From: an uncultured Erysipelotrichaceae bacterium
GTDB lineage: Bacteria; Bacillota_I; Bacilli_A; RF39; UBA660
DNA length: 35,551 nt
Assembly (NCBI GenBank): GCA_902797995.1
Contig: CADBUX010000012.1
Coordinates: forward strand, 1-35,551
Direction of reading: 5' to 3'
Within the stretch, counting starts at the first letter, position 1, and each line of letters starts with the position of its first letter. The notes below the pieces were generated by a model. It searched no databases. It had not been told where the DNA came from and was given only the letters and a program-made list of their open reading frames with translations. The translations under genes were made by a program, and so were the position numbers. Positions 390 to 33,590 of this stretch are shown piece by piece.

Positions 390-1808
390 ATGCCAACATG
401 GCCAGTACATTTAAAAATAGCAAACAATTTAGCAAAGAAATATCAATATGGTAATGATTTTATAATAGGTAATGTCTTACCAGATACAATGAATGGATAT
501 GTAGTAAAAAAACCATCAAATATATTTCACCATACTATAACTCATTATAGCGAAGTACAGCCACTTGGAGTTCCAAAAATCAATATAGGATTATTCCTAA
601 ACGACAATAGAAAAAAACTAAATAATGAATTAATTTTAGGAGTCTATTGCCATCTTCTTGCAGACTTTTATTTCAACGAATACACAATGAAACATCATAC
701 AAAAGAAGAAAATAATACACTTTTCGCGGTTTTAAAAGATGGAAGTTTAGATAAAAATGTATCACCGATGACATCAAAACAAAATGACTTTAAAGTTTTC
801 GGAGATTCTTTAATAAAAAATAAAGAAGTAGGTAATGAAGTAAGTATTACAAAAAACACTTTAAGTTTAAGTCAAGATTTAAACTACCAAATAGAAAAAG
901 AAGATATTCAAAAAACAGTAGATAAAATTAATGAAATAATAAATGAAAATATAAAAGAACAAGAAGAATATCAAATGTTTAATGAGAAAGAATTAATAGA
1001 TTTATACAACATTTGTTATGAATACATAGACAAAAAAATAAATGAAATAACACAAGATAAAGAAATAGCAAAAGCATTTGAACAATATACAAGCAAGTAT
1101 GATATGGAAGATAGTGATATAAATTACAAGTATTATCACTCCTATAGAGTAATGGAACATGCTAAGTATTTAGCAGAAAAACTAAATTTATCAAAGGAAG
1201 ATAAGGCTTTAGCAACTATAATAGGACTATATCATGATATAGGAAGGTTTGAACAAGATAAGTTATTTGATAGCTACAATGATACCAAACAATTTGACCA
1301 TGGCAATTATGGCGAAGAAGTATTAATAAAACAAGAGTTAATAAAACAAATACCAATTGAAGAAAAATATTATAACTTAATAGCCAAAGCCGTCAAAAAT
1401 CATAACAAGTATAGTATTGAAGAAGGGCTAAATGAAAAGGAATTATTTTATGCAAAGCTAATAAGAGATGCAGACAAACTAGATATTATAAACTACATGT
1501 CTAAAAGAATGTTGAGACTAAAATCTTTTAACTATGAGGACGATACATTTAATATAAGAGCCGAAATAAAAGAAGAATTTTTTAATGAACAAACAATATA
1601 TACTTTAGATAAGCAAAATAAAAATAACAGTGAAAAAGCTATAACAATGTTAGCACTCGTGTTTGATTTAAATTTTAAAGAAACCGCAGAGTATATATTA
1701 GACAATCATATACTTGAAGACTTTTATAATATATTAAAAAATAAAGAAAAATATAAAGAATATTTTAACCTAGCAAATAAACATTTAAAGGAGATGATAA
1801 AATGTTAG
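390..1808 (+). CDS. phospholipase C-like / HD-domain phosphohydrolase fusion
   Basis: A 472-residue cytosolic protein with two apparent domains. The N-terminus (about 1-110: [23 protein letters not shown] at 46-48, CHLLADF at 87-93) resembles the zinc-dependent phospholipase C-like domain of Firmicutes. The C-terminal half has a full HD signature: H250, H282-D283, DHG at 303-305 and RDADKLD at 359-365, the pattern of metal-dependent phosphohydrolases that often act on nucleotides. The linker (about 140-230) is charged and helical. The ATG is preceded by AAAGGAGG and is the first gene after the T-box; the end overlaps valS by 7 bases, so the two are translated together and respond to valine tRNA charging. 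The domain calls rest on motifs; the substrate is unknown, and I see no proven link to valine metabolism. Confidence 0.75.
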
Positions 1809-4336
1809 ATAAAAAATATAATCACAAAGAAGTAGAAAAAGGAAAGTATAAAAAATGGCTAGACAAAGAGTATTTTAAGTGTGGAGATAAAAGTAAAGAA
1901 CCATTTAGTATAATTTTGCCACCTCCAAATGTAACAGGAAAACTTCATTTAGGACATGCTTGGGATGTATCTATCCAAGATATAGTAGCAAGATATAAAA
2001 GAATGCAAGGATTTGATGTATTATGGCTTCCAGGAACAGATCATGCTGCAATAGCAACTGAAGCCAAAGTAGTAGCAAAACTAAAAAAAGAAGGAATAAA
2101 CAAATACGATTTAGGAAGAGAAAAGTTCTTAGAAAAATGCTGGGAATGGACTGAAGAATATGGTGGAAACATAAGAGAAGAATGGGCTAACATGGGACTT
2201 TCACTAGACTATTCTAAAGAAAGGTTTACCTTAGATGAATACTCAGTAAATGCAGTAAACAAAGCATTTATTGAAATGTATAATAAGGGACTAATTTACA
2301 GAGGAAAAAGAATAATTAACTGGGACCCTGAAGCAAAAACAGCACTTTCCAATGAAGAAGTTATTTATAAAGACACAAAAGGAGCATTCTATCATATAAA
2401 GTACTTTATCGAAGGAACAAAAGATTATTTGGACGTAGCAACAACAAGACCTGAAACTCTATTCGGAGATACCGCGGTAGCAGTTAATCCTAAAGATGAT
2501 AGATATAAACATTTAATAGGTAAAAATATCATTGTACCAATAGTAAATAGAGTAGTGCCAATAATCGCAGATTCACACGCAGACATAGACAAAGGTACTG
2601 GAGTAGTAAAAATAACACCAGCTCATGATCCTAACGATTTCGAAGTTGGATTTCGTCATAATTTAGAGCAAATAGTTATTATGGATGAAACAGCTCATAT
2701 GAATGAAGAAACAGGTAAATATAACAAAATGGATAGGTTTGAGTGTCGTGAAAAATTAGTAGAAGAACTAAAAGAGAAAGACCTACTTATTAAAATTGAA
2801 GAAATAACTCACTCAGTAGGATATTCAGAAAGAACAAATGTAATGGTAGAACCATACTTATCAGAACAATGGTTTGTTAAAATGAAAAAAATGTGTGAAG
2901 ACTTAATAGAAATGCAAAAAGATAAGAATAAAAAAGTAAACTTTATTCCAAAAAGATATGAAAAAATACTAATCCAAAAAGCAGAAGAATGCTATGACTG
3001 GTGTATATCAAGACAGTTATGGTGGGGAATCAGAATACCAATTTGGTATAAAGATGGAGAAATGAAAGTATCAATTGAATCTCCTGGTGAAGGATGGAAA
3101 CAGGACGAAGATGTACTAGATACTTGGTTCTCATCAGCACTTTGGCCTTTCTCAACATTAGGATGGGCCATGGAGGATGATTCATTATATAAAAGGTATT
3201 TTCCAACAAACTTTATGTCAACAGGGTATGATATTCTATTCTTCTGGGTATTTAGAATGATGTTCCAATCACAAGAATTTACTAACCAAAACCCATTTAA
3301 AGAATGTTATATCCATGGTCTTATAAGAGCAAAAGATGGAAGAAAAATGTCAAAATCACTAGGAAATGGAGTAGAACCATCTGAAATGGTAGAAAAATAT
3401 GGTGCAGATGCCTTAAGGTATTACTTAACAACAAACTCTGCAGCAGGATTAGATTTAAGATTTGATGAAGAAAAAATGGCTTCAACATGGAACTTTATTA
3501 ATAAATTATGGAACGCCTCAAGATTTGTACTTATGAATATTGAAGACTTAAAGAAAGAATCTTTAGATAATCTAAAACTTGAAGATAAATGGATTCTTAC
3601 AAAACTAAATAAAACAATTAAAGAAGTAAGAAAAAATATGGATAAGTATGAACTTAATCTTGCAGGTTCAACTTTATATAATTTCATATGGGAAGACTTC
3701 TGCGATAATTATATAGAATTATCAAAATCAAGTTTAAATGATAACACAACAAAAACAGTACTACTTAAAGTATTAACATCTATATTAAAAATGTTACATC
3801 CATATATGCCATATGTAACTGAAGAAATCTATAGTATGTTACCTATAAAAGATTCTGAATCTATAATGATTAGTTCTTATCCAAAATATAATAAAAATAA
3901 CTCATACATTGATGAAGAACAACTATTAAATAAAGTACTTGAAGACGTAACAAACATACGTAATTTAAAAGTTAACAACAACATAACAAAAGAATCAAGT
4001 ATTAAACTAGAAACATCTAAGGATTTAGAATCAATCTATAAAAATGCTTTAAAAATAAAAGAAGAACAGTTAATAACAGGTATTCCAAGTGATAAAGAAG
4101 AATATAATTACAAATCAAATTATATAAACATAACTTTCTATCAAGACGGAAAAGTTATTAACAAAGAACTGTTAATAAGTGAAATAGAAAAATTAGAACA
4201 ATCTATCAAAAAAAGAGAAAATCTTTTAGCAAATGAAAACTATGTAACAAAAGCACCAGCTCATGTAGTAGAACTAGATAGACAAAAGCTAAAAGAAGAA
4301 CAAGAAAAACTAAATTATCTAAGGGAACAACTTTAA
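1802..4336 (+). CDS. valS: valyl-tRNA synthetase
   Basis: Class I aminoacyl-tRNA synthetase of 844 residues that charges tRNA-Val with valine in the cytosol. The HIGH-type motif is HLGH (49-52) after PPPNVTGK, and KMSKS lies at 515-519. The editing insert ([16 protein letters not shown]) and the [13 protein letters not shown]-like block are both present. The last 70 or so residues form the charged coiled-coil arm that ends bacterial ValRS. Length is within the usual bacterial range. The ATG follows AAAGGAGATGATA and overlaps the previous stop. Expression should be controlled by the T-box at 150-369. Identification is secure. Confidence 0.98.
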
Positions 4337-17872: not shown

Positions 17873-17906
17873 TAAAATATAATAGGTTAGTGTGAGGAGG
17901 CCAAGC

Positions 17907-19742
17907 ATGAATGACAAAAATACTATTAATTTAGAAACAATTACATATGACAAATTAATTGAAAAAAAGCTAACAGAATTTAAGATGCAAAAAGATAAAG
18001 AGTGGGATGAATATCAACAAAAATTAGATGAATTACAAAAGGAATATAACGACAAAATAGATAAAATCGAAGAATCAGAAATACTAATAGAAATGTTTAG
18101 AAATCTAAATAGTGATAATGTAACAATTGAAAGAATAGAAGATTTAGCAAATAGTTTAGAAAATATGGACCTTTCAGAAGAAGAAATGTTAGTAGTTATG
18201 TCACGTTTAATAGAGTTGTCTTCAAATGATTTAATTCAAGAAAACATACTAGAGGAAGAAGAAACACCAATAGAAATAGAGCAACCTATAGTTCAAAAAA
18301 GTAACAAAGAAATTGAAAAAGAGATACGTGATGAATATAACAAAATAGCTAAAGAAGTTGAAAGAATAAATCAAATAAGAAAAGAAGAAGAACCAGAAAA
18401 TAATTATTATGATGCTGCTGTTAACATTGGTGCAAATGATAATATAGAAAAAACGACTGAACAAAGAGAAATATTAAATAACTATCTTCAACAAGCAGGA
18501 ACATTTATGACAAGACTAACTGCAATAGATGCGGACTATGCGTATATACAAAAAGCTATAAAAAAAGGAAGTACCAAAAGTATAGTTAATAATAAAAGTG
18601 AAATATATTCGCGCATACAACGTATAAAAGAAACTATTAACGAGATAGATGAATTTTTACCTGAATATAAAAAAGCATATCAAAAATTTGAAGAAGCATT
18701 TAAACGCCAAGAAGAAATTTTGGAAGAGACAGTTGAAGAATTAGAAGAAGAACCAGAAAAAAACTTAGAAAAAGAGAACCAAGTAGAAGCGGAAAAAGAA
18801 CATGAGGTAAAGAACAAAGAAGATGAAGAAAACACTGAATATGAAAGTAAAGTGTTAGAAGAATTGCCTGAGCAAGAAGATAATAACGCATTCATGGAAA
18901 TAGATCCTATTGTAATCGAAGAATATGAAAGAACTTATGGCGAAGCATTAAAGCTATTGGCTAATTATAAAAAAGCGGTTGAATCCAACCTAATAGCAAA
19001 AGACTCATACCTACATGGATATTTTAGTGCGTTAGAATTGATGACAAAAGATGGATTTCGAAATGATGTTACTGAAGATGAGATAAAGGCAATGATAAAT
19101 AACCTGCAATTAACTATTGATCCAATTGAAGCATCTGTTGATGGAGAATTAAAAAATGCACTATTTCCTGTAATTGATGCTCAACATATAAATATTGGTG
19201 ATAAAAATGTAATAATATTTTTAGATAATAATGGAGATTATTTAATTGAAGATGATCTAAATAGCATGAAATCTGGAGATAGAACTAAGGCTGCAAATGA
19301 GCTAAGAAAGGCAATAGAGACTAAGTACACAGTGCGTTCTTGGAATAATGATTTAAGATTCAAATCCGATAATTTAAAGGGCAGTAAAATTAAAGTAGGA
19401 GCAAAGACATACGAAGCTAGAAATTGTAAATGTGGTACTGGGTCGACAAGAATGTCAATATGGCCTGTATCGTTAAATCCTGTAATAAAAGAAAAGATAA
19501 AAAGTAAATATGAATTAGACGATAATTTTGAAAACGTACTTTTAGTGTGTGGTATTGATCCGAATCATAAAATAGATGAGCATCTTAAGACTCAAATAAA
19601 TAGTAACAGTAAAAGAATAACTGAAATAGATGAATTGTTTAGTAATCCTAATACAGATTTCAAAGATATTGAAGCATTAATTGATGGATCTTCTAATGTA
19701 TGTGGCAAAGTCTTCGAAAGTGGAACAGGACAAAGGGTTTAG
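17907..19742 (+). CDS. large coiled-coil protein of unknown function
   Basis: 611 residues from ATG 17907, with GAGGAGG six bases upstream; an in-frame GTG at 17892 lies before that RBS. Residues about 15-60 and 130-160 look like coiled coil, 190-270 is helical, and 265-325 is a glutamate-rich disordered linker. The C-terminal 280 residues look globular, with a motif NCKCGTGSTRMSIWP (about 506-520) and LLVCGIDPNHK. No signal peptide or membrane helix. I recognise no family. It heads a three-gene operon (12-base gap, then a 4-base overlap), suggesting that the products act together, perhaps as a cytosolic assembly. Confidence 0.6.
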   Translation: MNDKNTINLETITYDKLIEKKLTEFKMQKDKEWDEYQQKLDELQKEYNDKIDKIEESEILIEMFRNLNSDNVTIERIEDLANSLENMDLSEEEMLVVMSRLIELSSNDLIQENILEEEETPIEIEQPIVQKSNKEIEKEIRDEYNKIAKEVERINQIRKEEEPENNYYDAAVNIGANDNIEKTTEQREILNNYLQQAGTFMTRLTAIDADYAYIQKAIKKGSTKSIVNNKSEIYSRIQRIKETINEIDEFLPEYKKAYQKFEEAFKRQEEILEETVEELEEEPEKNLEKENQVEAEKEHEVKNKEDEENTEYESKVLEELPEQEDNNAFMEIDPIVIEEYERTYGEALKLLANYKKAVESNLIAKDSYLHGYFSALELMTKDGFRNDVTEDEIKAMINNLQLTIDPIEASVDGELKNALFPVIDAQHINIGDKNVIIFLDNNGDYLIEDDLNSMKSGDRTKAANELRKAIETKYTVRSWNNDLRFKSDNLKGSKIKVGAKTYEARNCKCGTGSTRMSIWPVSLNPVIKEKIKSKYELDDNFENVLLVCGIDPNHKIDEHLKTQINSNSKRITEIDELFSNPNTDFKDIEALIDGSSNVCGKVFESGTGQRV

Positions 19743-19754
19743 GAGGTTATAAGT

Positions 19755-21665
19755 ATGTTAAGAGAAATTATAGAAAATAAAATTGATAATTTGTTATTTG
19801 AACTCAATAATTCTAGTGGAACTGTTTCTGAAGAATTAATTGATGAATTAAGTTCATTTGCAGATAGTGTTTTAGCAAATACTGATGAATTAAGCAAATA
19901 TGATATTGAGGAATATATAAAAGAAGTTTATAAAGATAATACCAATATAAGTATAGGCGCTTATATAAAAAACTTAAATACTTTGAAACAATTAATAGAA
20001 TTAAAAAAGAATGATGACACTGGACTATTTGATTTAAGTGAAAAGCAAATAGAGTTCATAAAACAAGTTTGTGAAGATACAAACGAGTTCATTAAAAGTG
20101 TAAAAGCAAGCAATGAAAAAAATAATACAATTAATGCAGATATAGAAAAGTATCAACAATTAATTGAAAAAATAGAAGCAAGCGAAAAGAAATTAAATCA
20201 TGAAGAAGTAAAAGATCTTGTTACCATTATTGATAATTATAGTAATAAAGAAAAATTAAGTATATTAAAGGAAATTCTAAATTATAATATAAGTATAGAA
20301 AAAAACAAAAGCATTTCACATAGATATATTAATAAAGAACCACTAGACATAACAACAATTATAGAAAAGTTTAAAGAATACATAACAGATGAAGAAAGAA
20401 ATAATCAAATTAATAAATCTATAGAAAATTATGAAGAAGAAGTAACACATAACATTGATTTAAATAATGCTACTGCAATAATTCAATATTTAAAAGAAAA
20501 TGGTTTATTTGAAAAATTTAGAAGTGAAGATAAATTATTAGCACTTTTAATATATGGTACGCCTGAAACAGTTAAAGAAGCATTTGAGGAATTTAAAGAA
20601 AAAAACATGCTAAGTCAAACCTTTATTTATGAGTATCCAAGCTTATGGGCTGAACAAGGTGAGAGAAAAGCAATTAATAGAGTAAAAAAGCCAAAAAATG
20701 GTGACAGAAATTCCGAAGCGACATTAAAGAGCCATACAACAGGATTATTTAGAAATGAGTTATATGAAATAATAGAAGTATACGAAGCAAATGGCATAGA
20801 TTATAAAAAAGATAAGGGAGTCCTTTGTTTGTTTGCAAAAGATTTAGAATCAATAAAATATATGTTGTCTGTTGCTAAAAAGTATAATATTGATATAAAT
20901 AATTCAACCTTTAACATTGGAGATTACATGGATGAAAGATGTGACATATTAATTGAATGTGATATGTTACAACCTATCAAAAGTATTATTTTTGAGCATC
21001 CGGATGATATCTACACTGTAGAACAACTAAGGAAAATAATGGCAAATTTACGTCCATCTTTTATTGGTCAAATCCAAGAAGGGCATATTGCCTATTTACA
21101 ACAACAATTACAAGAAAATCAAGCGGTTCCTAACGATATATTTTCAACATCAAAAAACCAAAAGCCATATTATCTTTCTTCAGATTTTAGGTATCTCGAA
21201 AAACGATATGAGCCATTAAGAACATATAAAAAGGATAAAGTAACTTCTACAGTTAGAATAAAAGAATATGCAACTAATAATGATATGACCAATATTTCCT
21301 TTAATGGAGACATAGAAAACTATGAAAAAATGGAAAAAATAGCAAAAGGAGATAAATATGTAAGATTAGATACAGACCAAAGTATAATTGAATCTCCATT
21401 CATAAAAGATTTAGATGCTAAATATGGTGTTCCGGATAATGATTATTTATATCAAATTGGAGGATTAAGAATTTCTAGATATAAAGTTATGAGATTATAC
21501 CAAGCATTCAGAGATTATAATATGAACAATGAACCAGATAATCAACTAAGTGAATATGATATGAGATTGTTTTCAATAGCATATAGAAGCTATATTAAGA
21601 ATGATATATATAACAATATAAAAAATAATATAGAATCATTAGAGTTGGGAGGACAAAGATTATGA
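19755..21665 (+). CDS. large helical protein of unknown function
   Basis: 636 residues, almost all predicted helix, with AGGAGG upstream. Parts look like degenerate helical repeats: LLALLIYGTPETVKEAFEEF (261-280), VLCLFAKDLESIKYMLSVAK (356-375) and MLQPIKSIIFEHPDDIY (404-420). The last resembles NIKNIFLYRPNVLY in the small protein encoded next. No catalytic motif, signal peptide or membrane helix. The stop TGA overlaps the next ATG (21662-21665). I cannot name a family. The repeat-like build suggests a protein- or nucleic-acid-binding scaffold, but that is inference. Confidence 0.6.
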   Translation: MLREIIENKIDNLLFELNNSSGTVSEELIDELSSFADSVLANTDELSKYDIEEYIKEVYKDNTNISIGAYIKNLNTLKQLIELKKNDDTGLFDLSEKQIEFIKQVCEDTNEFIKSVKASNEKNNTINADIEKYQQLIEKIEASEKKLNHEEVKDLVTIIDNYSNKEKLSILKEILNYNISIEKNKSISHRYINKEPLDITTIIEKFKEYITDEERNNQINKSIENYEEEVTHNIDLNNATAIIQYLKENGLFEKFRSEDKLLALLIYGTPETVKEAFEEFKEKNMLSQTFIYEYPSLWAEQGERKAINRVKKPKNGDRNSEATLKSHTTGLFRNELYEIIEVYEANGIDYKKDKGVLCLFAKDLESIKYMLSVAKKYNIDINNSTFNIGDYMDERCDILIECDMLQPIKSIIFEHPDDIYTVEQLRKIMANLRPSFIGQIQEGHIAYLQQQLQENQAVPNDIFSTSKNQKPYYLSSDFRYLEKRYEPLRTYKKDKVTSTVRIKEYATNNDMTNISFNGDIENYEKMEKIAKGDKYVRLDTDQSIIESPFIKDLDAKYGVPDNDYLYQIGGLRISRYKVMRLYQAFRDYNMNNEPDNQLSEYDMRLFSIAYRSYIKNDIYNNIKNNIESLELGGQRL

Positions 21666-21955
21666 ATTATCTAAAAAAATTCAACTTATCTGATAAAGAT
21701 TTAGATGAAATATATGATAGCCTATCTGATGAAAACTGGCAATTTATAACAGCTACAAAAACACAAGTAGGAACATTATTAGAATATTTAATTTCAATAG
21801 GTATAACTAATATTAAAAATATTTTCTTGTATAGACCAAACGTATTGTATCAATATGCTGAAGATATGAAAAAGTATATTGAAGAATCCCAAATAACTGA
21901 TATTGTTCAAAAAATAAATGAAGATGTTGAAAATTTCGATTTATTAGGATTGTAA
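21662..21955 (+). CDS. small helical repeat protein of unknown function
   Basis: 97 residues, starting inside the stop of the previous gene (ATGA), with GGAGGA upstream. The core (LLEYLISIGITNIKNIFLYR, then PNVLYQYAEDMKKYIEE) has the spacing of short helical repeats and looks like part of the 636-residue neighbour. It superficially recalls the helix pairs of mTERF-type repeats, though that family is eukaryotic and I do not claim homology. An intrinsic terminator follows 5 bases after the stop, so this is the last gene of the operon. Confidence 0.6.
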   Translation: MNYLKKFNLSDKDLDEIYDSLSDENWQFITATKTQVGTLLEYLISIGITNIKNIFLYRPNVLYQYAEDMKKYIEESQITDIVQKINEDVENFDLLGL

Positions 21956-21960
21956 AACAT

Positions 21961-21987
21961 AAGTATAGTTAGAATGCTATACTTTTT
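21961..21987 (+). terminator. terminator of the three-gene operon
   Basis: AAGTATAG (21961-21968) pairs with CTATACTT (21977-21984), loop TTAGAATG, and a T run to 21987. Confidence 0.75.
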
Positions 21988-22009
21988 CTATACTGAATAA
22001 TGAAAAATA

Positions 22010-22018
22010 TGATATAAT
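22010..22018 (+). promoter_or_regulatory. extended -10 promoter
   Basis: TGATATAAT at 22010-22018 is a TG-extended -10 between the previous terminator and the gene at 22047. No clear -35 box. Confidence 0.5.
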
Positions 22019-22046
22019 TATAATATAAATTAGGAGGTTATTTTTA

Positions 22047-22532
22047 ATGAATGAAACTGAAATAAAAAACGATTCTTTTTATGATGAAGATGGTACATTT
22101 AGACCACTAACTTCAAGTGATGGAAATATAGATGGTGAATTATCTCGTCTTAGAAATACTTATATGGAATCTGAAAGAGAGTACTTTGAGTTTTTACTTT
22201 CTAAAAAAGATATACGAGATTTATTTCAAGAGTATGTTATGAATTATAATAACGAAGAATTGTTTAAACATGCAATTAGTATTCAAAACAAAATTGAAAC
22301 AGGTATGGTAGAAACCAAAGAAGACCTTGAAAAAATGAAAAATATGCCGCCAGAAGAAAAAGATAAATATCACATGAAGTTGTTAGCACGCTCTGAAGGT
22401 ATGATGTGTCTATTACTGGCAGCAACCAGAGATAGATCAAAAATGTTACGCTTAGTAAAAACAATTGACTCTAATGAAATGCTAGATTCCAATGCCGAAG
22501 AACTTGAACATGGTAATAATAGAACAAGATAA
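22047..22532 (+). CDS. small acidic protein of unknown function
   Basis: 161 residues with its own promoter and RBS (AGGAGG). It opens with an acidic, probably disordered stretch (NDSFYDEDGTFRPLTSSDG), then helices with EREYFEFLLSKKDIRDLFQEY and a methionine-rich patch KLLARSEGMMCLLLAATRDR. The last 20 residues are polar. I see no family motif, signal peptide or membrane helix. It sits as a single-gene unit between the unknown operon and the ORF6N unit, with no visible link to either. Confidence 0.55.
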   Translation: MNETEIKNDSFYDEDGTFRPLTSSDGNIDGELSRLRNTYMESEREYFEFLLSKKDIRDLFQEYVMNYNNEELFKHAISIQNKIETGMVETKEDLEKMKNMPPEEKDKYHMKLLARSEGMMCLLLAATRDRSKMLRLVKTIDSNEMLDSNAEELEHGNNRTR

Positions 22533-22566: not shown

Positions 22567-22595
22567 TTGTAAATATGCAATAATTTTTATATAAT
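22567..22595 (+). promoter_or_regulatory. promoter of the structured RNA/ORF6N unit
   Basis: TTGTAA (22567-22572) and TATAAT (22590-22595) are 17 bases apart, a good sigma-A-type promoter. Transcription would start near 22602, at the head of the structured RNA. Confidence 0.7.
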
Positions 22596-22601
22596 ACTAA
22601 T

Positions 22602-22725
22602 ATATTAATTAACTTGCCAAGTGTTAATATGACAATTTAAACGATAGGGTGTATTTATTTAGGGCAAGAAATAAATATGCATGATGCGGGTATATTTCTA
22701 GAAAAGAGAAATATGCTCTTTTTTT
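22602..22725 (+). ncRNA. predicted pseudoknot RNA upstream of ORF6N gene
   Basis: About 124 nt between a promoter and an intrinsic terminator, with no plausible gene inside. Bases 22649-22660 pair with 22669-22680 in a 12-bp hairpin (two G-U pairs) whose loop AGGGCAAG contains GGCAAG (22663-22668). That loop is exactly complementary to CTTGCC at 22613-22618, which would form a pseudoknot. I do not recognise a known riboswitch or ribozyme class. It may be a leader that controls the ORF6N gene by attenuation, or a separate small RNA. Confidence 0.55.
22688..22725 (+). terminator. intrinsic terminator before the ORF6N gene
   Basis: Bases 22688-22699 pair with 22707-22718 (12 bp, two wobble pairs, 7-base loop) and seven T follow at 22719-22725. 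It lies only 25 bases before the ORF6N start, with no second promoter visible between, so the gene probably depends on readthrough. Confidence 0.8.
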
Positions 22726-22749: not shown

Positions 22750-23628
22750 ATGAATGAAATAATGGAAAAAGAAAACATCAAAATTGAGGATATAATTTAC
22801 AAAATAAGAGGAAAAGAAGTAATGTTAGACTCTGACCTTGCTAAATTATATCAAGTAGAAACTAAAAGGATAAATGAAGCAGTTAAAAATAATCCTGAAA
22901 AATTTCCAGAAAGGTTTAGTTGGAAATTATCAATTGAAGAAACAAAAAATATTTCAAGGTCGAAATTTTCGACCTTGAAAATGAAAAAAGGTTCTAACAT
23001 AAAATATGGAGCTACAGTCTTCACAGAACAAGGAGTCTACATGCTTGCAACAGTATTAAAGTCTAAAGTTGCTACAAAAGTATCAATAGCCATAATGGAT
23101 ACCTTTGTAAAAATGAGACACTATATTAATTACAATATAGACGCTTTACCAAGAAGATTCCTATTACTTGAAGAAAAGGTAGATAACAATACCAAGAGAA
23201 TCAATGAACTTTTTGATAAATTTGATCCTAAAGATATTGTTAAAGACTATTTATTTTTCGAAGGTGATTTTTATGATGCATATTCTGTACTTTTAGATAT
23301 TCTAAATAGACCTAGAAAAGAAATAATTATAATAGATAACTATGCAGGCAAAGAATTACTAGATATATTGAAAGATATAGAAAAAGACATTGTAATAGTA
23401 TCTAAAAATATAGATAAAAAACTAAAAGAAAAGTATGAAAAACAATATAAAAATATAGAGTTTATCAATAACGATTCATTTCATGACAGATTCATAATAC
23501 TAGATAGAAGTAGATTATATATATGTGGTTCAAGTTTAAAAGATATAGGTAAGAAATGTTTTGCAATAAGTGAAATGAATGAACCAATATATTTAGAAAG
23601 AATACTAGAAAGAATTAATAAAAACTAA
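22750..23628 (+). CDS. ORF6N-domain DNA-binding protein with PLD-like C-terminus
   Basis: 292 residues. About 11-125 match the ORF6N domain of phage antirepressor-like proteins (IRGKEVMLDSDLAKLYQVET, RINEAVKNNPEKFPERF, then KYGATVFTEQGVYMLATVL). About 133-155 is a short coiled coil. About 168-290 resembles the phospholipase D-like tail of such proteins, with FHDRFIILD (His245, Asp246) and LYICGSSLKDIGKKCFAI. Only one HKD-like motif is present. RBS AAAGGAGG precedes the ATG. The family occurs on mobile elements and chromosomes; the target is unknown. The gene sits behind an attenuator-like RNA and carries a 29-bp palindrome within its coding sequence. Confidence 0.85.
   Translation: MNEIMEKENIKIEDIIYKIRGKEVMLDSDLAKLYQVETKRINEAVKNNPEKFPERFSWKLSIEETKNISRSKFSTLKMKKGSNIKYGATVFTEQGVYMLATVLKSKVATKVSIAIMDTFVKMRHYINYNIDALPRRFLLLEEKVDNNTKRINELFDKFDPKDIVKDYLFFEGDFYDAYSVLLDILNRPRKEIIIIDNYAGKELLDILKDIEKDIVIVSKNIDKKLKEKYEKQYKNIEFINNDSFHDRFIILDRSRLYICGSSLKDIGKKCFAISEMNEPIYLERILERINKN
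22952..22980. repeat. 29-bp perfect palindrome inside the ORF6N gene
   Basis: Two 14-base arms, 22952-22965 and 22967-22980, are exact reverse complements around one central T. The core is GGTCGAAA / TTTCGACC. It encodes part of ISRSKFSTLK, just before the conserved FTEQG region. Confidence 0.9.
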
Positions 23629-23653: not shown

Positions 23654-23684
23654 AATTTGAAGTCGAAAATTTCGACCTCAAATT
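23654..23684. repeat. near copy of the ORF6N palindrome downstream of the gene
   Basis: Arms 23654-23668 and 23670-23684 are complementary over 15 bases with one mismatch around a central A. The core AGTCGAAA / TTTCGACC matches the palindrome in the ORF6N gene. No T tract follows, so it is not a standard terminator. It may be an operator-like site or a leftover of a duplicated ORF6N segment. Confidence 0.75.
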
Positions 23685-33397: not shown

Positions 33398-33447
33398 AGA
33401 GTTAGTTATAAAAACTTAAGGAGGATAGTTAAAGATTTTTATAATAA

Positions 33448-33578
33448 GCGCCAGAACCAAAAAAGGTTGACGAGGTTAGTAGTTATCGAAGTTTTCGGCG
33501 GGTGCTACTACGGGTAACAACTCGTTAGAATATATATTAAAAAACAAAAACAAAATTGTAACAGAGTATATATTCAAG
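33448..33578 (+). ncRNA. glmS self-cleaving ribozyme (glucosamine-6-phosphate sensor)
   Basis: Conserved glmS ribozyme blocks appear in order: GCGCCAGAAC (33448-33457), TTGACGAGG (33467-33475), ATCGAAGTTTTCGGCGGGTGC (around 33485-33504), then a stem GAATATATA (33528-33536) with TATATATTC (33567-33575). Cleavage is expected between 33447 and 33448. By established knowledge, glucosamine-6-phosphate is the cofactor for self-cleavage, which destabilises the glmS message when product is plentiful. It ends about 12 bases before the glmS start. Confidence 0.93.
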
Positions 33579-33590
33579 TAAGGAGGATTT

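Follow-up and report, generated by a model that had tools for sequence, protein, structure and literature searches.

We analysed a 35,551-nucleotide stretch of DNA (the window) from an uncultured Erysipelotrichaceae bacterium (RF39; UBA660), comprising positions 1–35,551 of the forward strand of contig CADBUX010000012.1 (assembly GCA_902797995.1), and focused on a structured RNA that precedes a gene of the ORF6N family. The locus is laid out as promoter, folded RNA (~120 nt with its terminator), terminator and ORF6N gene. This is the order proposed by an initial annotation made from the letters of the DNA, and the promoter, the 12-bp hairpin, the complementarity between GGCAAG and CTTGCC, the terminator and the ORF6N start all lie where that annotation had placed them. 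The elements of the locus are as follows:

22567–22595, forward strand: sigma-70 type promoter TTGTAA-17-TATAAT; transcription start predicted at or near 22602
22602–22608 with 22624–22630, forward strand: hairpin P1 at the RNA's 5′ end; loop contains CTTGCC (22613–22618)
22631–22641, forward strand: unpaired joint GACAATTTAAA; A22632, A22634, A22635 and T22636–22638 conserved in 93–100%
22642–22643, forward strand: 5′ side (CG) of helix P0, whose partner is 22687–22688
22649–22660 with 22669–22680, forward strand: hairpin P2, 12 bp; loop AGGGCAAG, whose GGCAAG (22663–22668) kisses the CTTGCC of P1
22681–22688, forward strand: ATGATGCG, the 3′ strand of the internal loop plus the 3′ side of P0 (CG, 22687–22688); A22681, T22682 and G22688 conserved in 95–99%
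22688–22725, forward strand: intrinsic terminator; stem 22688–22718, U run 22719–22725; the outermost G22688 doubles as the 3′ base of P0
22737–22742, forward strand: Shine–Dalgarno sequence AGGAGG; the gap between U run and start codon is too short for a promoter
22750–23628, forward strand: ORF6N gene, the regulated gene in the reading developed below; ORF6N domain (residues 16–102) plus a C-terminal PLD-like domain (HDR...D...GSS)

The start of P1 coincides with the expected start of transcription. GGCAAG is the exact complement of CTTGCC, and since CTTGCC forms the loop of a second hairpin (22602–22630), the contact between the two is a loop–loop kiss in which both partners are hairpin loops. 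The initial annotation had described the P2 hairpin and its loop pairing correctly and had missed P1, P0 and the kissing nature of the contact. Such a fold is not provable from a single sequence; folding of the window copy by itself gives a modest gain over shuffled versions (z = −2.1). The fold is established instead by comparison of homologous sequences. The window genome holds three copies of the leader, each immediately 5′ of a different ORF6N gene, the other two sharing 94% and 85% identity with the one in the window, and BLAST across the bacterial family found more, upstream of differing genes. With a covariance model (R2) that covered the 88-nt core and included neither kiss nor terminator, 87 copies were retrieved; within the same family they come from 56 of the 386 genomes and from 37 of the 150 genera.

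Covariation within P1 and P2 was assessed over 87 distinct sequences, in an alignment that had itself been fitted to these two helices. P1 is paired in 92.9% of cells, with both-side changes in 6 of 7 pairs, and the main stem of P2 in 87.1%, with both-side changes in 9 of 9. Taken together, the two helices have both-side changes in 17 of 18 pairs, and their covariation score is 0.358 compared with 0.156±0.008 for shuffled and at most 0.115 for slid alignments. The kissing helix was left out of the covariance model, so its pairing is independent of that model. Of 514 cells, 98.4% are paired (shuffled, 91.5±0.4%; slid, 30–48%), and 5 of the helix's 6 pairs change on both sides, with 45 such changes against 11.0±2.3 in shuffled alignments and pair types CG/UA/GU, GC/AU and CG/UA/GC. 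RNAalifold, run without structure input, returned the kissing helix as its sole consensus helix. The pairing of the loop with CTTGCC that had been proposed from the window copy is thus conserved through compensatory change. P0 (2–3 bp) links this core to the terminator: its first pair is C-G in 82, U-G in 2 and U-A in 2 of the 87 copies, its second is G-C in 85, and the next is A-U in 26 or C-G in 15, extending the helix in 41 copies, with A·G in 43. The joint sequence ACAAUUU is almost invariant despite being unpaired.

No copy was found outside the family in samples of the order (288 genomes) and the class (395), where strict filters may miss divergent copies, and a wider taxonomic range was dropped because these samples yielded the same family only. 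Named records with the leader are metagenome-assembled genomes labelled Bacilli, Erysipelotrichaceae, Bacillales or Tenericutes, several of them from the gut of sheep, goat, roe deer, cattle or rabbit. A phage or plasmid origin was likewise set aside: the pattern had no match in IMG/VR, and blastn matches in phages and plasmids were at chance level only. Searches of Rfam 15 gave no significant match over the leader, either at gathering thresholds (window plus 14 loci) or at relaxed E-value (window leader plus 9 loci), in keeping with the initial annotation's view that the RNA belongs to no recognised class. Nor is the leader described in the literature searched, which covers few subscription journals and limits the claim of novelty accordingly. 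The RNA probably represents a new family of cis-regulatory leaders, seemingly not described before.

The terminator, which was not part of the covariance model, lies directly 3′ of the core in all 87 homologues. Its hairpin is below −8 kcal/mol in every one (median −16.9 kcal/mol, U run 7), a threshold passed by 7 of 84 in-gene controls, and the 3′ G of P0 is also paired within it in 75 of 87. A TATAAT-like −10 box lies ~6–8 nt 5′ of the RNA start in most homologues; the few leaders lacking a clear promoter are located within operons, which is consistent with action in cis. In 44 of 80 units only 10–32 nt separate the U run from the start codon, too few to hold a promoter. A terminator thus stands between RNA and gene with no intervening promoter, the arrangement of an intrinsic-terminator attenuator.

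The 80 downstream open reading frames (ORFs) include members of the ORF6N (31), RhuM (16, with Fic in 14), Bro-N (8), YhcG/DUF1016 nuclease (7), KilA-N (6), ToxN (1) and PBECR3 (1) families, along with three mutually alike proteins (L103, L106 and L108) that have no clear Pfam match. Abi_2 had no match among the downstream Pfam families, and the leader matched no abiF RNA family. Many of the downstream proteins match PADLOC candidate defence proteins (PDC-S05 and PDC-S23). The window protein matches both Pfam PF10543 (ORF6N; E=2.8e-28) and PDC-S05 (E=3.1e-91), and its predicted fold, a moderate model with a mean predicted local distance difference test score of 72, matches TrmBL2, Zucchini/PLD6 and NucT. 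As with a riboswitch, a related set of genes is preceded in cis by a conserved, structured 5′ leader. The gene is truncated, missing or cut by the contig end in 19 units, pointing to fast turnover. These genomes also contain leaderless ORF6N and RhuM genes, and a search for a cryptic version of the leader at such genes found none.

Of 86 leader units, 8 have LexA-like boxes (CRAACN4GTTYG, at most one mismatch) in their promoters, where shuffles predict 0.1, as do 7 of 29 leaderless ORF6N/RhuM relatives. The boxes occur in the promoters of L080, L083, L076, L109 and L066 and at L151, L165, L177 and L187, several of them between the promoter hexamers. These boxes are a hint that the gene class may answer to DNA damage or phage stress.

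Leaders that stand before different gene families in the same genome reach identities of 0.87–0.99 (mean 0.737), as in genomes G370 (RhuM/BRO, 0.99), G316 (YhcG/RhuM, 0.98), G144 (RhuM/ORF6N, 0.92) and G229 (YhcG/ORF6N, 0.91); between genera, leaders of one and the same gene family average 0.654. Judged by these identities, leader sequence follows the genome and not the gene family. Pairwise alignments show a common block that spans the −10 box to the Shine–Dalgarno sequence, beyond which the genes diverge. The module is portable: within one genome, a single leader has come to stand before different toxin or defence genes, as though the leader had stayed in place and the genes had been exchanged. 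Unrelated genes with a common promoter, leader, terminator and Shine–Dalgarno sequence were seen at L057/L078, L091/L100 and L093; the proteins of L057 and L078 are unrelated, and the common block continues through their eighth codon (MNELIEKE). Tandem leader units lie ~1.1–1.2 kb apart in genomes G316, G377 and G015.

The element is hence a leader, as first annotated, but not one specific to ORF6N, since the same RNA precedes RhuM-Fic, YhcG, KilA-N, BRO, PBECR3 and ToxN genes. Autoregulation by the ORF6N product, which the initial annotation had suggested might bind the RNA, was rejected because unrelated families follow the same RNA and its sequence tracks the genome. The role of a type III antitoxin, a system cited there for the same order of elements, is contradicted at the one ToxN gene among the 80 ORFs (L063; E=2.3e-35). 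The order at this locus (1615–1747, minus strand) is promoter-like site, three toxI-like repeats, their terminator, leader, leader terminator and toxN, the leader being preceded by an array of ~34 nt × 3.1 that has a terminator to itself. It seems that a promoter–leader module has entered the space between the antitoxin RNA and the toxin, and the location of the leader between the toxI-like repeats and toxN marks it as an added regulatory module, not the antitoxin. The leader itself is single-copy and contains no tandem repeats, the only array being an A-rich one of 12 nt upstream of it. Membership of the type III toxin–antitoxin systems was rejected on these grounds, as was a general link to toxins of the ToxN/AbiQ family: the remaining ORFs come from unrelated families.

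We consider it likely that the RNA is a portable transcription attenuator that acts in cis, is built like a riboswitch and controls toxin and defence genes, its fold setting the level of read-through. Transcription would begin at the first base of P1, and the nascent RNA would form two hairpins locked together by the 6-bp kissing loop and P0, with the joint ACAAUUU left unpaired in an aptamer-like manner. Polymerase would then reach the intrinsic terminator, which abuts P0 and usually has one nucleotide in common with it, and in most units the gene, having no promoter of its own, would be expressed only upon read-through. A ligand, a protein or a transcription state tied to infection or stress might stabilize or destabilize the fold and so adjust read-through. 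One possible step is that the outermost base of the terminator is held or released by the fold, as a linchpin. Because many unrelated genes lie behind the same RNA with its own terminator, the toxin and candidate-defence genes probably have a common on/off switch.

Several observations weigh against this attenuator. Complementarity between core and terminator is no stronger within a leader (−6.4 kcal/mol) than between swapped partners (−6.8±0.19 kcal/mol), and P0 overlaps the terminator by only ~1 nt. Between genera, leader identity is 0.654 for the same gene family versus 0.635 for different families (3 of 300 permutations). Moreover, units that have lost the gene keep most of the fold (kissing helix paired in 96.2% versus 99.0%) and do not separate action in cis from action in trans; decay of the RNA structure after gene loss was no more than a weak trend and was discarded as a line of argument. 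Classical antiterminator switching was rejected, own pairing being no better than swapped, and so was a complementarity between AGAAATA in P2 and TATTTCT in the terminator, which is present in the window copy and unconserved among homologues. With such pairing absent, the simple routes left to the attenuator would be competition between P0 and the terminator at the terminator base, or contact with a protein or with polymerase.

The order of promoter, RNA, terminator and toxin, known from type III systems and from AbiF/RCd22 (PMC12373285), could also mean that the ~120-nt terminated RNA is itself the product, as an RNA antitoxin of either kind or a small RNA, the terminator setting the ratio of RNA to toxin. 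The strong terminator of every copy and the persistence of some leaders where the gene is lost would suit such action in trans. We nonetheless regard it as unlikely: the same fold occurs ahead of at least seven protein families that have no relation to one another, the RNA tracks the genome and not the toxin, the leader lacks tandem repeats, and at the ToxN locus a separate repeat array with its own terminator already lies upstream.

We doubt more strongly that the leader is a passive dampener, in which the terminator would permit a fixed low read-through and the fold would merely protect the 5′ end or set a constant leak. This would fit the low basal expression that toxic genes often require, the lack of antiterminator pairing and the retention of the terminator in 86 of 87 single-sequence folds; a fixed terminator, however, needs neither a 6-bp kiss kept by compensatory change nor near-invariant unpaired AAUUU and CG positions and a constant terminator spacing. 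Least credible to us is that the fold itself binds RNA polymerase, in the manner of the put and EAR RNAs, and lets a fraction of complexes past the terminator. This would require no alternative pairing and would account for a fold that starts at the transcription start and adjoins the terminator, but put and EAR work over long range on several terminators, whereas here the terminator is joined to the fold in 87 of 87 copies, and Rfam similarity is lacking.

A bolder extension of the attenuator, which we advance only tentatively, is a riboswitch-like class dedicated to immunity, in which one aptamer would sense phage attack or DNA damage and release transcription of the downstream toxin or nuclease, so that scattered defence genes would form one RNA-controlled regulon. 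We know of no earlier description of a riboswitch-like RNA class devoted to toxin or defence genes. A single RNA fold links at least seven unrelated toxin or defence families in an uncultured gut lineage; its 87 natural variants and the covariance model offer a handle on what triggers these genes, and the genes behind it are a possible route to new defence genes.

A near-perfect palindrome (arms 11–17) is present in every ORF6N gene that follows the leader, in most of them near codon 66. In the window gene it lies at 22952–22980 (GGTCGAAATTTTCGACC), in a stretch that is a low-confidence loop in the protein model, and it recurs in L038, L043, L072, L077, L118 and other ORF6N units, with varying letters and the symmetry kept. 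The mean longest arm is 13.3, compared with 9.5±1.2 for synonymous-codon shuffles. Comparable palindromes are present in several RhuM genes and, close to fixed codon positions, in BRO, KilA-N and YhcG genes. The palindrome core of the window gene is repeated on its own (GTCGAAAATTTCGAC, 23654–23684) 32 nt 3′ of the ORF6N stop, ahead of the rpsL promoter; genome-wide, only three such sites occur at one mismatch or fewer, all at ORF6N genes. The palindrome is possibly a self-binding or a recombination site. Elsewhere in the window, four co-directional ORFs (616, 636, 97 and 161 amino acids; 17892–22532) without a Pfam match lie just 5′ of the leader, a T-box leader (146–350) is followed at 390–4336 by an HD-domain gene and then a valS-like ORF, placing the HD gene between T-box and synthetase, and an ordinary glmS ribozyme (33436–33584) precedes glmS.

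The leader resembles the terminating riboswitches (fluoride crcB, purine and ZTP) in its compact 5′ fold with a loop–loop or pseudoknot contact, near-invariant unpaired bases and adjoining terminator, followed by a Shine–Dalgarno sequence and gene. Purine riboswitches have kissing loops, and the fluoride riboswitch, whose terminator abuts the aptamer, works by a linchpin mechanism. Unlike these three, which control metabolism and transport genes, the leader precedes toxin and defence candidates and has no match in Rfam, by sequence or by covariance, and no conserved antiterminator pairing. The put and EAR RNAs exert their effect at long range and at several terminators. In the attenuator reading the leader would, like them, act on termination in cis as nascent RNA; it is unrelated to them in sequence and its terminator is fused to the fold. 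With the type III systems (ToxIN, AbiQ, CptIN and TenpIN) it has in common the series of promoter, pseudoknotted RNA, terminator and toxin, and one copy precedes ToxN, yet it is single-copy and stands before unrelated proteins, the toxI-like repeats at the ToxN locus being separate and upstream. Finally, in AbiF/RCd22 a structured RNA and terminator lie upstream of an abortive-infection toxin that is made from read-through, and RCd22, which contains two abiF motifs, binds the toxin of its own system (PMC12373285). The leader likewise places a structured RNA with a terminator ahead of a toxin gene; unlike RCd22, it matches no abiF family, adopts a different fold and is common to many toxin families.
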